From Bacteroidales bacterium (lineage in GTDB: Bacteria; Bacteroidota; Bacteroidia; Bacteroidales; ML635J-15): a stretch of 64,000 nucleotides of DNA. Position 1 is the stretch's first letter; the number at the start of each line of letters is the position of its first letter. The notes beneath the pieces are model-generated. The model saw only the letters and a list, made by a program, of their open reading frames with translations. It was not told the DNA's origin and did not search any database. The stretch lies in assembly GCA_003249955.1 (NCBI GenBank), contig QKHS01000057.1, forward strand, positions 1-64,000. Direction: 5' to 3'. The translations under genes and the position numbers were made by a program. Shown piece by piece: positions 24,766 to 30,583 of the stretch.

Positions 24766-25731
24766 ATGAAAAGATCACAAATAAAAATATGGCCTGAAAT
24801 TGATGGATTGCTACCTATAATTACACCATGGCAAAATGTAGAAAATAGGGATAATGATGTTTTTATCGATTTTTCAAATTGTCAATCGGTCTATTCTTCT
24901 AATCTAGTACTTTTATTAATTCGGATAATTAAATTATTAGTTTACAAAAAGAATAATCGGAAATGGGAATCTCATGATGAAATTGTCTCCAATACTTTCA
25001 AAAATATTATTGATTTAAATTTCTTTAACATACTTGAATTATATGAAACCAATATAAGTATGTTTTGGAATAAAGAGTTTTCAAAAAGATCTGAGCAGAT
25101 AATAGTTCATAAGAATAAATACAATAATGAAATTCATTCATTTCCAATTTACCATGTTGAGATAGATAGTTTTAATGAAAGAAGAGAAGTCCTTAATTCA
25201 TTTCGGAGAAATTTTAATAAATTATTAGCTCCATATTATGACAACTACAATTTTAATCTTAGTCAACTCACATTGATTCTAAATGAAATTCTAAAAAATT
25301 CAGCGGATCATACTGATTCAAACGCTTTTTTGGGTATAGATATTGAATTTATTAATGAAAAAGAAATTGAAATTTTAATTGGTGTTGGTGATTTAGGAGT
25401 TGGAATTAATATGAACATAAAAAATCATCTGCCCGAAGATCAATTGAAAAGATATGAATTTTGGGATTTAACACAGACATACAGATATGCTCTGTCGAAA
25501 GGAGGAACAACTAAAATGGATTCTATTAATAATAAAGGCATGGGTATGTCTATTATTTTAGATGGAGCGAGAGAGCTAGGTATGAACCTTTCAGTATTTG
25601 ATGCTGAAAGTAGAGGACTTTTAACTAAAATAAAATCACTTTCACATAGTGATATTAGAAGGAATTTTTATAATACTGGTAGAACAGTAGGATTTTATTA
25701 TCACGGAAGTCTTAAAGCAAAAAAAATATAA
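24766..25731 (+). CDS. GHKL ATPase with STAS-like N-terminal domain
   Basis: A 321-residue cytoplasmic protein. Residues about 1-110 (VFIDFSNCQSVYSSNLVLLLIRII) have the strand-helix form of a STAS/MlaB-like domain. The second half is a GHKL ATP-binding fold: N-box NEILKNSADH (near 173-182), G1 GVGDLGVGI, and a G2 loop NNKGMGMSI. No phosphoacceptor His box is seen, so it is unlike a classical sensor kinase; anti-sigma-factor-like kinases pair this way with STAS partners. It begins the operon, 45 nt after radC; TAATTTTG at 24754 fits a -7 element almost at the start codon, suggesting a very short leader. Confidence 0.8.
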   Translation: MKRSQIKIWPEIDGLLPIITPWQNVENRDNDVFIDFSNCQSVYSSNLVLLLIRIIKLLVYKKNNRKWESHDEIVSNTFKNIIDLNFFNILELYETNISMFWNKEFSKRSEQIIVHKNKYNNEIHSFPIYHVEIDSFNERREVLNSFRRNFNKLLAPYYDNYNFNLSQLTLILNEILKNSADHTDSNAFLGIDIEFINEKEIEILIGVGDLGVGINMNIKNHLPEDQLKRYEFWDLTQTYRYALSKGGTTKMDSINNKGMGMSIILDGARELGMNLSVFDAESRGLLTKIKSLSHSDIRRNFYNTGRTVGFYYHGSLKAKKI

Positions 25732-25732
25732 T

Positions 25733-26158
25733 ATGAAACAGATTCAGATTAAAGAAGATTATAAAATTAACGATTTAGGGGACATGTCCGAGATTGGAGA
25801 AATAATTGAGAAAATAGATATTGATTCAAATTCGGTAGTCGAATTAAACCTAAGACACTGTTTTATTGATTATCCTGCAACTAGCCAAATAATTGATAAG
25901 GTATTATTTCAATTAAAAAAGAATTCTGGAAATAAAGAATTAATAATTAAACACGATTATTATTTACCAGAATCAACAATTCTTAATTTATTACTATTAG
26001 GAAGTAAGTACTTCAATATTGAGGCTAATAAGGAGATTGAATTAGAACTTCTATCTAAAACCATAAAAGACCAAATTAACAAAGATAGTATCATTATTGA
26101 AATCGATGTAGTAAGTAGAACCGGTGAATTAATACAATCATACAAGTATGGGAAATAA
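25733..26158 (+). CDS. STAS-like (DUF4325-type) protein
   Basis: A 141-residue protein, starting 1 nt after the ATPase gene. The N-terminal half VVELNLRHCFIDYPATSQIIDKVLFQL followed by NKELIIKHDYY fits the STAS-like DUF4325 family: a strand ending in a short polar loop and a long helix carrying the conserved segment after it. Such proteins usually sit beside GHKL ATPases and are presumed partners or switch substrates. The gene overlaps the next one by 11 nt. Assignment is from pattern and context. Confidence 0.65.
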   Translation: MKQIQIKEDYKINDLGDMSEIGEIIEKIDIDSNSVVELNLRHCFIDYPATSQIIDKVLFQLKKNSGNKELIIKHDYYLPESTILNLLLLGSKYFNIEANKEIELELLSKTIKDQINKDSIIIEIDVVSRTGELIQSYKYGK

Positions 26159-28307
26159 GGATGCAATTATTAAAGATTACATTTTTGAAATTGTCGAAAG
26201 AATTTCAAGATTTTATATTCACTTGGATGAAATTAAAAATCAATTCTATGTAAATGAAGACAATAAAGTAAATGACAAGCTAATTTTCATTAATAGTTAC
26301 ATTGATTGTCTTGTTAAGTACTTCGATATCATTAAAGATTTAAATGAAAAATTATTGAACTATCAAGGAAACGGTAATTTTATAGAGGACTTAAAAACCT
26401 TAATAATAAGTTTAAATCATTTACATAGGAAATATTTAGGACACCTTCCTCGACCATCTGAACCGGTCGAGCTTAAACGCTTTGGAAGAATAATCGAAAA
26501 ACATGTCATTAATCTTAATAAAGCAATAGAATTAGACTTGGAATCTCATAAAAATCCCTTTTCAATTTATCTCAGTGAAGAAGTCGGAGAAATGACATAT
26601 TTAAAAGACCCAATACTTGAATTTAAGAATGAAAAACTGAATTCTTTTATAAATAGTTATAATGAGAAAACCAATAGCAAAATTGATTTAATCAATATAG
26701 ATATTGAGGAGAATGACACTTTTCATATTTCGATTCCAAGAATTGATGCAAATAATCCTTGCAGGTGGCCAACACTAATGCACGAGGTAGCTCACAAAAT
26801 CTATAAAAAGGAATATTTCAATAACAAGGAAATTGAGGAGGATTTTATTAGCCAATTAGATGAAATTCAAAAGAAATTTATAAATTCTATTTCAAAAAAA
26901 ATTAATATTCGAAGTTGGCTAATAGAGTGTTGGTGTGACCTATTCGCCTGCCTTGTAACAGGACCGGTTTTCTGGTTTTCTCAGTTCTCTGCATTTATTT
27001 TTCAGGAAAAATTCGATTTTAACAGAATCGATGAACTTTACCCCAAAGCCTTATTTCGCTTAACACTAATAAGACGTATTTTGGAGCATAGATTTCCTTC
27101 TATTTTTTCAGATGAACTGAATGAATTAATGAAATCAGCAGAATCAATTCTTGCAACGATTGATTCTACTGATGATTATGGCTTTTCTAAGGAAGATGAT
27201 ATCCGTCAACTTTTCCTTTATTTTAGAGTCTATTTTCTTAATTATTTTTTTAATCCAAAGGGAGAAGGTATTCAATTTGGATCATCTGCGTTAAATAAGA
27301 ATCTTAGACCCCTTATAAAATATACAGAAGAAATAAATACAGCCACTATTAATCTATTAATTAAATCTCTTAAGAAAGGACATCCTATCCCAAGTAAAAT
27401 ATCTAATAATTCAGATTTAATTGAAAGTCCAACTTTTATCCAAGAAATTCTTCTTGCGGCTTGGATGTATCGCAATAAAGAATTTAAAGAAGAGATTTTC
27501 AAAGATATTAATAATAAGGAACTATCAAGTGGAGAACTTTTACTTAAAGTAGTTAATAATTTTGTAAAATTTGATAAATCTATTTTAAGATCAATTCAAG
27601 TTTCTGAATGGTTTGATTTGTTAGAAGCTGAAGTGAATACAGAAAAACTTGCAAATATTTTAGATAATAAAGATAATGATTACAATCCTTTAGAATCAAG
27701 TGTTCTAAACGATTCAGAAATACTAAATTATATTAAAGAAGAAGAACTTAAAATAATACCCATAATAAATATAGATAAACAACTGGGGTCAACTTCATTT
27801 GATATAAGATTAGGAACATCTTTTCAAGTTTATCTACATACAAAATATGGTATAGTTGATTTTGCAAATCCTTCAATTGATACAAGAATTCACAATTCAA
27901 AAATGATTGATTTAGATTTTTTGGAATCGATTACAATTTCTCCAGGTCAATTTATATTAGGACACTCCATGGAATATCTAAAATTACCACCCAAAATAGC
28001 TGGACAGGTAGAAGGAAGAAGTAGTTTTGCTCGCCTAGGACTTCAAATACACATGACAGCAAGTTTTATTGATCCCGGATTTGAGGGTGTACTAACTTTT
28101 GAAATTTTTAATGCGGGACCTAATCCGATTAAGTTATTCCCAGGGTTAAGAATTGCTCAATTAAGATTTTTTAAGGCTAACAATCCTTTTATTCCATATA
28201 ATAGAAATTTAGAAGCTAAATATAGCGGTCTTTTAACTCATAATGATAGTATGCAGTTTAAAGACTATGAAATGAAAAAAATAAGAGACGAACTGTTGAA
28301 AAAGTAA
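26148..28307 (+). CDS. Metallopeptidase - dCTP deaminase fusion
   Basis: A 719-residue cytoplasmic protein with two enzyme parts. Residues about 1-200 are helical. TLMHEVAHKIYKKEYF (His near 212) is an HEXXH zinc motif, with the downstream WLIECWCDLFACLVTGPVF (near 260) giving the third ligand E and the E-x3-D pattern of gluzincins. Residues about 520-719 are a full-length dCTP deaminase-like domain: DIRLGTSFQVY, VEGRSSFARLGL (near 620) and HMTASFIDPGFEGVLTFE with the catalytic Glu near 652, then PGLRIAQLRFF. dCTP deaminases are known antiphage effectors that deplete dCTP. I infer that the peptidase part controls or is controlled by the deaminase. Central gene of the operon. Confidence 0.85.
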   Translation: MGNKDAIIKDYIFEIVERISRFYIHLDEIKNQFYVNEDNKVNDKLIFINSYIDCLVKYFDIIKDLNEKLLNYQGNGNFIEDLKTLIISLNHLHRKYLGHLPRPSEPVELKRFGRIIEKHVINLNKAIELDLESHKNPFSIYLSEEVGEMTYLKDPILEFKNEKLNSFINSYNEKTNSKIDLINIDIEENDTFHISIPRIDANNPCRWPTLMHEVAHKIYKKEYFNNKEIEEDFISQLDEIQKKFINSISKKINIRSWLIECWCDLFACLVTGPVFWFSQFSAFIFQEKFDFNRIDELYPKALFRLTLIRRILEHRFPSIFSDELNELMKSAESILATIDSTDDYGFSKEDDIRQLFLYFRVYFLNYFFNPKGEGIQFGSSALNKNLRPLIKYTEEINTATINLLIKSLKKGHPIPSKISNNSDLIESPTFIQEILLAAWMYRNKEFKEEIFKDINNKELSSGELLLKVVNNFVKFDKSILRSIQVSEWFDLLEAEVNTEKLANILDNKDNDYNPLESSVLNDSEILNYIKEEELKIIPIINIDKQLGSTSFDIRLGTSFQVYLHTKYGIVDFANPSIDTRIHNSKMIDLDFLESITISPGQFILGHSMEYLKLPPKIAGQVEGRSSFARLGLQIHMTASFIDPGFEGVLTFEIFNAGPNPIKLFPGLRIAQLRFFKANNPFIPYNRNLEAKYSGLLTHNDSMQFKDYEMKKIRDELLKK

Positions 28308-28328
28308 AATAATTAAATAAATGTTAAT

Positions 28329-29021
28329 ATGGCGTATTTATATATAATTACATTTCTTGTCGGTTGTATTTCAGCTTTAGCTGAGTTGCTAAGTAGATAT
28401 GATCGTATTGGTCAGATATTTGCTTTTTTTTCAAGTTGGATTTATCTATTCATTAATGGTTCTGCTGCAATTCTTGCATACTGGTTTATTTCTGAATATA
28501 ATTTGGATTTTGGTACACTTACAAAAACAGAAATAGGTAAAATAGTCATTGCGGGGACTTCTTCAATGATCATATTAAGAAGTTCATTTGCAAGCATAAA
28601 AAATGGAAATAAAAATATTGAAGCTGGATTAGCCGCAATTACAAGCGTTTTTCTGAGAAATGCAGATAGGGTATTGGATAGAAAAAGATCAATTGAAGAT
28701 TATAAGGAGATAGAGCAAATTATGCAAAATGTAGCTTTTAACAAAGCTAAAGTTGATTTGCCTTTGATTTGTCTTGGTATGATGAAAAATGTAACACTTG
28801 AAGAGCAACAGCTTTTGGCAAATGATATAATTAAGTTATCTGAAAAAGCAGTAAGTGAAAAAGCAAAATCTATTAATTTAGGAGTGTTGGTTTCAGACAC
28901 TACTGGTCTCAAACTATTAAAAGAAGTAGTCTCATCAAACATGGATATTTTTTCCAGAGAAGAAGGAAAAGAAAACGAGAAGACTCAAAAAATTAATGAA
29001 TTATTAAATAAATATAAATAG
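28329..29021 (+). CDS. Hypothetical membrane protein of the defence operon
   Basis: A 230-residue protein with three hydrophobic segments in the first 90 residues (about 2-18, 30-52 and 71-85) and a helical, charged cytoplasmic part of about 140 residues. No family is recognised. It begins 21 nt after the fusion gene and its stop overlaps the next start region, so it belongs to the operon. A membrane anchor or membrane-acting effector is possible but not shown. Confidence 0.65.
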   Translation: MAYLYIITFLVGCISALAELLSRYDRIGQIFAFFSSWIYLFINGSAAILAYWFISEYNLDFGTLTKTEIGKIVIAGTSSMIILRSSFASIKNGNKNIEAGLAAITSVFLRNADRVLDRKRSIEDYKEIEQIMQNVAFNKAKVDLPLICLGMMKNVTLEEQQLLANDIIKLSEKAVSEKAKSINLGVLVSDTTGLKLLKEVVSSNMDIFSREEGKENEKTQKINELLNKYK

Positions 29022-29023
29022 TG

Positions 29024-29434
29024 ATGGAAAAGAAAAGTTCAAATATTTCGGGATTTATTGATGGATATAAAGCTGGTAATTTATCATTAATGTCAAATAA
29101 TTTTTATATTAAGAAAAATGACATCAGTTTCCATATTGATAATATATTGAATAATTTAAAAGATATTAATTCTAATGAAATTAAGAATTTTGATTCGGAA
29201 ATCCGCAGTCTTAAGTCAAGCATATTATATGGTCTGGATTCTTTTGATTCATGGCAGATGTTTGGGGAATCACTTAATTCCATATTAGATTCTTATAAAA
29301 AGCTAAATAAGAAAACACAGGATTTATTATTTCCGGATATCAAAAAAGTTATTTATCACTTTATTGATCTTGCAAAAAAAAGTGAAGAGCCAAAGCTTAT
29401 AGAAATTGCGATTGAAGTCGGTGAAAATTTATAA
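29024..29434 (+). CDS. Hypothetical helical protein of the defence operon
   Basis: A 136-residue soluble, highly charged and helical protein. A GTG at 29021 overlaps the previous TAG; ATG 29024 is preferred. The content (DINSNEIKNFDSEIRSLKSSILYGLDSFDSWQMFGESLNSIL) suggests a small helical bundle and perhaps a coiled coil. No family is recognised. It is followed directly by the methyltransferase gene. Confidence 0.55.
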   Translation: MEKKSSNISGFIDGYKAGNLSLMSNNFYIKKNDISFHIDNILNNLKDINSNEIKNFDSEIRSLKSSILYGLDSFDSWQMFGESLNSILDSYKKLNKKTQDLLFPDIKKVIYHFIDLAKKSEEPKLIEIAIEVGENL

Positions 29435-29446
29435 TTGCTTTTATCC

Positions 29447-30280
29447 ATGGATAATATAATTAAGGGAAATAGGGTAAGATTAATATTGGGAGATTCATTA
29501 AATGTATTATCTAAATTACCATCTAAAAGTGTTAATTGTGTCGTTACTTCACCTCCATATTGGGGACTTAGAGATTATGAAGTAGAAAATCAGATTGGAT
29601 TAGAAATTACTATAAATGCGTATTATGAAAAACTTGTTTCTATTTTTATAGAACTCTATAGAATATTAAAAGATGATGGAACTTTATGGTTAAATATTGG
29701 TGATGGCTATACAAGTGGAAATAGAAAATATAGAGCTGAGGATAAAAAGAATGGTGCTCGTTCTATGAATTTTAGACCTGATAACCCAGATGGGCTAAAA
29801 AATAAAGAATTATTAGGCATTCCATGGAATCTAGCATTTAAACTTCAAAAATTAGGTTGGTATTTAAGATGTGATATTATTTGGCATAAGCCAAATGCAA
29901 TGCCAGAAAGTGTTAAAGATAGACCTTACAGAAATCATGAGTACTTATTTTTGTTTTCTAAATCAGAAAAATATTTTTTTAAGGACACAGGTCTTATAAT
30001 AGATTCAACAGGGAAAAAATTAAGGTCTGTTTGGACTATAAATCAAAATAAATTTAACGGGGATCATTTCGCAACATTTCCTATTGAATTAATCGATCCA
30101 TGTATTATCTCATCTACTAAAGAAAACCACATTGTGCTTGATCCATTTTGTGGAACAAGTTCAGTTGGCCTGTCATGTCTAAAAAATAACCGAAGATTTA
30201 TTGGAATTGATATTAATAAAAAATACGTTGACATATCTAGTGAACGATTAAGTGTGGAATATGAAAAACTTCAGTCATAG
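29447..30280 (+). CDS. DNA methyltransferase (N4-cytosine or N6-adenine type)
   Basis: A 277-residue DNA methyltransferase. Motif IV VVTSPPYWGLRDYEVENQIGLE (near residue 35) precedes motif I VLDPFCGTSSVGLSC (near 231), the beta-class order of the D12/N4_N6 family. SPPY is typical of m4C and some m6A enzymes. The frame is open to TTG 29435, but ATG 29447 starts the conserved part. No restriction endonuclease gene is recognised next to it, so it may modify self-DNA for the preceding system or be an orphan. Last gene of the tightly spaced operon; its specificity is unknown. Confidence 0.9.
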   Translation: MDNIIKGNRVRLILGDSLNVLSKLPSKSVNCVVTSPPYWGLRDYEVENQIGLEITINAYYEKLVSIFIELYRILKDDGTLWLNIGDGYTSGNRKYRAEDKKNGARSMNFRPDNPDGLKNKELLGIPWNLAFKLQKLGWYLRCDIIWHKPNAMPESVKDRPYRNHEYLFLFSKSEKYFFKDTGLIIDSTGKKLRSVWTINQNKFNGDHFATFPIELIDPCIISSTKENHIVLDPFCGTSSVGLSCLKNNRRFIGIDINKKYVDISSERLSVEYEKLQS

Positions 30281-30439
30281 TAACCAATGTGTGAAAATGA
30301 TATATGTTCAATGCTTAATAATAAGGAAAATACAACCCAATTCATTAACTGAAAAACAAATCCCAAGAGCATTAAGATACCCGAACTCATAGTTTTATTG
30401 TAAAATCAACATCTGAAAAGTACAAACACACGCTTAATT

Positions 30440-30487
30440 GTAAGTCTCCCCAAAATTATTTTCTGCCTTAATTTTTGGGAGACTTAC
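30440..30487. terminator. 19-bp inverted repeat after the defence operon
   Basis: GTAAGTCTCCCCAAAATTA (30440-30458) and TAATTTTTGGGAGACTTAC (30469-30487) pair with one mismatch over 19 bp. It may end the operon, but there is no clear T run. The left arm and the preceding ACACGC...ATTG recur at 720-748, so it may instead be a mobile-element boundary. Confidence 0.55.
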
Positions 30488-30583
30488 ATATTTTATGTAA
30501 ATTTTGTAAAAAAATTGTTTTTACGAGTTTTTATTTTGTATTTTTGCATAAACAATGCAATATTTGCAAATAGAAGTAGGGAA

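Follow-up and report, generated by a model that had tools for sequence, protein, structure and literature searches.

The DNA stretch analysed here, 64,000 nt of contig QKHS01000057.1 from a Bacteroidales bacterium (GCA_003249955.1) and called the window below, contains at positions 24766–30280 six open reading frames (ORFs), all on the + strand, which are packed as an operon and encode, behind a GHKL protein and a small partner, a metallopeptidase fused to a dCTP deaminase (DCD). The successive spacings between the six genes are +1, -11, +21, -1, and 0 nt, and the G+C content of each of them lies within 0.261–0.299, compared with 0.419 for the upstream RadC-like gene (Pfam E 9.3e-35) and with 0.352 and 0.346 for the downstream genes for an RloA-like AAA_21 protein (Pfam E 2.3e-33) and an RloB-like protein (E 6.5e-20). 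A sequence-only reading of this DNA had described the layout, i.e., six genes spaced by at most about 21 nt, in a block more AT-rich than its flanks, between a RadC-like gene and an RloA/RloB pair, and had taken it for a candidate undescribed defence operon. What it observed is confirmed, and its interpretation is partly supported. The first three genes, of which the third encodes two enzymes, are the following:

24766–25731, + strand, 321-aa GHKL protein, VapK/CapK-like kinase candidate (Pfam HATPase_c, motif boxes)
25733–26158, + strand, 141-aa partner, VapS-like candidate by position and motif only, with a STAS-like core, a short tail, and no winged helix-turn-helix (wHTH)
26148–27683, + strand, residues 1–512 of the 719-aa fusion, HExxH metallopeptidase (HEVAH 212–216, ExxCD 260–264, YPxxLFR 298–304)
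27684–28307, + strand, residues 513–719 of the 719-aa fusion, dCTP deaminase domain (Pfam, TIGR02274, PDB, residues)

The whole ORF of the fusion spans 26148–28307, and the reading of its product as a metallopeptidase joined to a dCTP deaminase holds for both halves. The DCD identity of residues 513–719 is convincing on sequence grounds: the domain matches Pfam DCD (PF22769) at E 6.7e-39 and 133.9 bits (cut-off 27) and TIGR02274 dCTP_deam at 151.6 bits (cut-off 92.8), and its closest solved structures are PDB 2qxx (E 1.5e-27) from M. tuberculosis and 1xs1 from E. coli (E 5.1e-27). Window residues R624, S625, R629, and E652 align with R110, S111, R115, and E138 of the E. coli enzyme, E652 being the glutamate to which the sequence-only reading had pointed, and the residues retained comprise E. 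coli R110, S111, S112, R115, A124, D128, E138, and K178. S111, R115, and E138 (E. coli numbering) are the catalytic residues of DCD. The window enzyme is predicted to be a zinc-independent DCD of the trimeric type, DCDs being described as trimers (PMC12088426). It forms the C-terminus of the fusion, and no added inhibitory segment was seen. In the peptidase half, eight columns (P, H, E, H, E, D, P, R) that are invariant in 16/16 diverse peptidases are all kept, and HExxH followed by a later E and D with conserved spacing, as in gluzincin-like metallopeptidases, occurs in all 16 relatives. Matches of the peptidases to described families are weak: Pfam M48 was found at E 0.01 in one relative only, and the PDB search returned a snake venom metalloproteinase (0.045) and Ste24p (0.94), with coiled or designed helical proteins scoring better over the N-terminal part.

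The 321-aa product of the first gene is supported as a GHKL protein, as it had been labelled: all of the boxes are present (N box from residue 173, G1 at 209, G2 at 256–261), and HATPase_c matches at E 4.2e-4 and 21.2 bits, under the Pfam cut-off of 26.4. It also matches PHROG 3364, a family of unknown function, at E 9e-10. Its N-terminal part is possibly STAS-like and, judged by length and with helix-turn-helix (HTH) models limited to those of Pfam, offers no space for an N-terminal HTH of the CapK type. The 141-aa product of the second gene resembles STAS at motif level only; its T50 or S51 is plausibly placed and could be a phospho-acceptor candidate.

A profile of the peptidases matched 10 places in 9 of the 395 sampled genomes of the window’s phylum, and these places are six Argonaute operons, locus L030, the window itself, and loci L036 and L037. 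The gene order at L030 is that of the window, with the two enzymes unfused: GHKL protein (324 aa), small partner (211 aa), peptidase (468 aa), and DCD (206 aa). The DCDs of L030 and the window share 40% identity, the peptidases 24.7% across an alignment of 332 aa (E 2.2e-11 against a small database), and the GHKL proteins 28.8% over 104 aa (blastp E 6e-6, with the L030 ORFs as the only database). The 211-aa partner has the size of CapS, and its C-terminal part is, by eye, possibly a wHTH. Relatives of the L030 kinase are found on plasmids, where two of the three records opened have annotated STAS-like neighbours; in the third, the neighbour is unannotated and matches one of those STAS-like proteins. 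The DCD of L030 is followed by a different small protein, type I restriction genes lie at the edge of the locus, and tblastn revealed there no relatives of the membrane protein, helper, or methyltransferase of the window. The claim that the six genes form one unit is therefore supported for the GHKL protein, peptidase, and DCD, which by the L030 order belong together, but not for the last three genes, which are absent at L030.

The association of peptidase and DCD is much more widespread. Searched alone, the 719-aa fusion gave no relative beyond its own genome in the 395 phylum genomes, and nothing in 99 genomes of its order, plasmids, phages, or viral contigs; these were short-reach searches, and those of the phylum and order genomes with window sequence had the peptidase as sole query. 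One match to the fusion query, L003, was spurious, being a TPR histidine kinase. The neighbourhood search that had been suggested for this protein thus revealed no fused relative, but a plasmid search with its DCD part led to a family of unfused pairs: in an E. coli plasmid and a Bradyrhizobium plasmid found by tblastn, dcd comes immediately after a gene that encodes the HExxH peptidase as a protein of its own. With the E. coli peptidase as tblastn query, 17 plasmid records were obtained, Salmonella among them; 12 list dcd under the match, two more have dcd next door, two from Salmonella are fragmentarily annotated, and one was left unopened. A pattern scan of the genomes of 84,980 species with the E. 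coli plasmid peptidase gave 54 loci, which by their record titles span Alpha-, Beta-, and Gammaproteobacteria, Geobacter, and many Bacteroidota. Three scans of viral contigs with the window or L030 peptidase were empty, and query A5 gave three contigs, one of which (L041) carries the full triad of small protein, peptidase, and DCD; L040, with no peptidase in its ORF list, and L042, with an unrelated protein, were left out of the count. DCD lies directly downstream of a related peptidase at 55 of 55 loci (the 54 genome loci and L041), as an ORF that overlaps or abuts the gene of the peptidase at 50 and as DCD-encoding DNA detected by tblastn at the other five, and this adjacency exceeds chance. 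A short ORF of about 100 aa is present on the same strand just upstream of the peptidase at 45/55 loci (44/54 genome loci). The motif HELGH, found in 55/55 peptidases, is no evidence, because one search pattern contained it. In 50 aligned triad DCDs (loci L041–L096), S111 is kept in 50 and R115 and E138 in 49 each; A124 is missing from all 50 and 46 have Q in place of D128, changes that could mean altered catalysis.

In pairwise comparison the window peptidase has no close relative; its best matches are the L030 peptidase and that of Bradyrhizobium (27% identity over 114 aa, E 2.8e-5), and blastp against most triad peptidases was not significant; the window and triad peptidases are taken as one family on the strength of intermediates and motifs. 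When the phylum to which a Rhizobium genome belongs was searched, 4 of 349 genomes gave a match, and a second locus of that Rhizobium genome holds a second peptidase-DCD subtype (L107, 5924–7776), near a gene that is Fic-domain-like by eye. The 90-kb E. coli plasmid NZ_CP122828.1 (L004), which looks like a P1-type phage-plasmid, carries the triad also present in viral contig L041, along with a Ref nuclease gene and an Icd-like gene.

Defence genes are frequent beside members of the wider family. The RloA/RloB-like pair lies downstream of the six window genes, type I restriction genes surround a triad of Emticicia, and triads adjoin multi-ubiquitin/ThiF operons with CapP-like peptidases, as well as a SIR2 gene. 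Plasmids of Rhizobium and Agrobacterium carry the triad behind genes for multi-ubiquitin, ThiF, and DUF6527 proteins that share its strand. Within flanks of up to 8 kb, some of them shorter, a multi-ubiquitin relative was detected by tblastn at 15 of the 54 genome loci (17 if L091 and L096, detected by phmmer only, are added) and a CapP-like gene by phmmer at 11 of 54, both counts lacking a background rate. In a census that scanned 131 of 168 eligible flanking proteins, the commonest PADLOC models were E1-E2 and capP, and the numbers by model were up to 8 members for E1-E2, 6 for capP, 9 for ThiF, 7 for Multi_ubiq, and 4 for integrases, again with no background rate. Many triad flanks consist of ordinary metabolic genes. 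L009, L010, L045–L049, L072, and L075 are examples of triads beside multi-ubiquitin/ThiF or CapP-like genes.

AvcD-type deaminases are zinc-dependent. It had been argued for the window that dCTP deaminase is an established antiphage effector; the antiphage dCTP deaminases are, however, AvcD-type enzymes (PMC9455884), and zinc-dependent DCTDs and DCDs are unrelated in sequence, structure, and mechanism (PMC12088426). The argument thus concerns enzymes unrelated to the window DCD. The predicted outcome, loss of dCTP and more deoxyuridine nucleotides, would be the same as for AvcD, whereas the deaminase fold is a different and unrelated one, given the class to which AvcD was assigned above. The housekeeping Dcd belongs to the same domain family as the window DCD, which differs from it in being fused to a peptidase, as DCDs of the wider family differ in being paired with one.

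For the kinase and its partner, the closest comparisons are offered by two systems described in PMC13373217. CapK, with the architecture HTH-STAS-GHKL, is a kinase activated by single-stranded DNA (ssDNA) that phosphorylates CapS, a STAS-wHTH repressor, and both head immune operons; VapKSC, a three-gene system that protects against a phage, places a VapC-like nuclease under a STAS-GHKL kinase and a STAS antitoxin (PMC13373217). The window resembles CapK-CapS in that its operon opens with a GHKL protein and then a small partner, but at 141 aa this partner is too short to include a wHTH, and the kinase has no N-terminal HTH; the 211-aa partner at L030 is closer to CapS in size and in its possible wHTH. 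No peptidase-DCD is found among the operons downstream of CapK-CapS that are listed in PMC13373217. The order of GHKL kinase, small partner, and effector, together with the sizes of the first two products, fits VapK-VapS, and the effector would likewise be a toxic enzyme held back by the partner, whereas the third gene encodes a peptidase-DCD and no VapC/PIN nuclease, and the STAS domains show resemblance at the motif level only. The window is therefore best described as predicted to work like VapKSC without being a member of it, as VapC is missing and STAS is unproven.

On these grounds, we tentatively propose that the window holds an immune operon activated by stress or infection, whose effector is a two-headed peptidase-DCD released by a kinase. 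By analogy with VapKSC and CapKS, DNA damage or ssDNA arising in infection would activate the GHKL protein as a kinase, which would then phosphorylate the 141-aa partner; beforehand, this partner would keep the 719-aa protein silent, as VapS does VapC. Once freed, the fusion would use both of its enzymes, the DCD half converting dCTP to dUTP and so draining dCTP, and the HExxH half cleaving a protein target as a second hit. The last three genes would not be required. The proposal is supported by the recurring peptidase-DCD pair, by intact catalytic motifs in both halves, by the GHKL protein and small partner at L030, by the STAS-like neighbours of the relatives of the L030 kinase on plasmids, and by the defence setting.

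Several results weigh against this kinase-release model. Among the 395, 99, and 349 genomes sampled, the GHKL arrangement recurs at one other locus only, and the GHKL proteins of the two loci are alike only weakly: a genome-wide search with the 321-aa query at E 1e-3 gave no match at G016 and missed the L030 kinase. The 141-aa partner of the window and the 211-aa partner of L030 share no similarity. The STAS-like label that the sequence-only reading gave to the 141-aa protein found no significant support in any of the sequence tests run (Pfam, PDB, and profile comparisons): there was no Pfam match at E 1 and nothing meaningful in NCBIfam, PHROGs, PADLOC, or the PDB, and when both partners were compared with STAS proteins by hhalign and by phmmer/hmmsearch, the real pairs scored no better than shuffled or unrelated controls, one negative hhalign control (neg_pepN) being taken from a gapped alignment row. 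Finally, the peptidase has relatives that stand with Argonaute where no DCD is present, and therefore DCD need not be the effector.

These Argonaute operons account for 6 of the 10 places in the phylum (L029, L031, L032, L033, L034, and L035, in G190, G146, G292, G046, G186, and G371). Each consists of an Argonaute of about 765–857 aa, a 123–149-aa protein, and an HExxH peptidase of the window family, with no DCD; the peptidase thus follows a small protein, as in the window, but Argonaute stands in place of the GHKL protein and DCD. The L031 Argonaute matches PDB 8xih at E 2.9e-138, and that of L034 is divergent. On a Sinorhizobium plasmid (L014, 5674–7062), the gene for a 1595-aa ATP-binding protein is directly followed by that for a peptidase of the family, with no DCD, and genes for a CHAT protein and for a C25 peptidase lie close by. 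The further relatives at L036 and L037 have another setting, beside long proteins.

It may be asked whether the peptidase is the sole effector, with the DCD trimer sensing a change in dCTP, dUTP, or dTTP during infection and switching the peptidase on, and the GHKL protein and its partner acting as a second trigger. The peptidase is indeed the constant part, given the Argonaute-linked places and the Sinorhizobium pair of ATP-binding protein and peptidase; in the plain triads, no component other than DCD has a known small-molecule ligand, and the loss of A124 and the change of D128 to Q could point to changed catalysis. However, 49–50 of the 50 triad DCDs retain the general base E138 and the remaining residues of catalysis, and the window DCD is canonical, which speaks against a sensor, as binding without catalysis would not need these residues. 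We regard this explanation as somewhat less likely than the two-headed effector. Beyond the choice of effector, the HExxH peptidase may be a general immune effector or relay standing behind interchangeable triggers, an idea that we entertain with some doubt. The triggers would be a GHKL kinase with its partner (the window and L030), DCD with a small protein (the 55 loci, many of them near multi-ubiquitin/ThiF and CapH/CapP-type genes), Argonaute (the six loci), and a large ATPase, and the window would represent peptidase and DCD merged under kinase control.

That the six genes are not one system at all, but an acquired AT-rich block in which a non-defence kinase-partner-effector module, an orphan methyltransferase, and two unrelated small genes share a promoter, is considered improbable. 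The complete set was found at no second locus among the sampled genomes, which counts against six genes as one unit, and L030 lacks relatives of the last three; the methyltransferase is of a known restriction-modification type, and switches of the Cap type may serve general stress responses (PMC13373217). Against this stand the tight packing and uniform composition over all six genes and the defence genes around the wider family. The idea, already part of the sequence-only reading, that the peptidase activates DCD by cutting it from the fusion or from an inhibitor is very improbable: the two are fused in the window, but DCD is a separate gene product at L030 and at 55/55 family loci, so that cutting it free is no step common to the family, and the DCD sits at the C-terminus of the fusion with no extra inhibitory segment seen.

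The remaining features of the block are the last three genes and a hairpin:

28329–29021, + strand, 230-aa protein, hydrophobic in its N-terminal part and probably bound to the membrane (hydropathy)
29021–29434, + strand, 137-aa protein (helper), GTG start, with only weak, probably chance family matches and no L030 relative
29435–30280, + strand, 281-aa DNA methyltransferase of XcyI type, TTG start (PADLOC MTase_II E 3.3e-114)
30439–30488, no strand assigned, hairpin with 20-nt arms that are 95% complementary and 10 nt apart, between the sixth gene and the RloA-like gene

The three genes may belong to the system because their composition and spacing match the rest of the block; nothing beyond the window supports their membership. 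Recurrence of all six genes, which had been put forward as a check, was not seen, and the 230-aa protein was found in no other genome of the 168 searched, on no plasmid, and not at L030. The methyltransferase label is correct (Pfam N6_N4_Mtase E 2.2e-48). The enzyme shares 60.2% identity with methyltransferases of Xanthomonas plasmids (phmmer E 8.5e-112), and in the one Xanthomonas record opened an XcyI family endonuclease follows the methyltransferase. In the window, the cognate endonuclease of this restriction-modification type was not found (best E 3.6), nor was a relative of it found near the related methyltransferases L117 and L118. CCCGGG, the XcyI site, shows no avoidance in the window, with 7 occurrences against 1.7 expected. 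The role of marking self-DNA that had been suggested for the methyltransferase is thus not favoured, as with about 60% identity to XcyI-linked enzymes an orphan modification enzyme explains the data equally well. The hairpin is likely the end of the transcription unit. The RloA-like ORF was called from a TTG (window 30515–30583), and an ATG about 23 codons downstream is the likelier start; with that start, the hairpin would lie farther from this gene.

The combination of genes was one that the sequence-only reading did not know, and this agrees with the PADLOC models, which match neither the peptidase nor the DCD half: none was found for the 719-aa protein at E 0.1 in the 2023 library, whose content was not checked for a model of antiphage dCTP deaminase, and at 0.01 the peptidases and DCDs of the unfused kind, six in all, matched no model either. 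A literature search of partial coverage, with few subscription journals and no bioRxiv, returned no peptidase-DCD pair, no proteolysis coupled to depletion of deoxynucleoside triphosphates, and nothing joining prokaryotic Argonaute, a metalloprotease operon, and defence; nor did it return a dCTP deaminase tied to antiphage activity together with GHKL, to STAS together with defence, to multiubiquitin, or to a metallopeptidase operon.

The unfused triad is common: one pattern scan yielded 54 genome loci, and the plasmid records include some from E. coli and Salmonella. If the proposed model is true, then a zinc-independent, trimeric-type dCTP deaminase would join the immune enzymes, tied to a metallopeptidase, and the kinase-partner switch of VapKSC and CapKS would be seen to drive a quite different effector.

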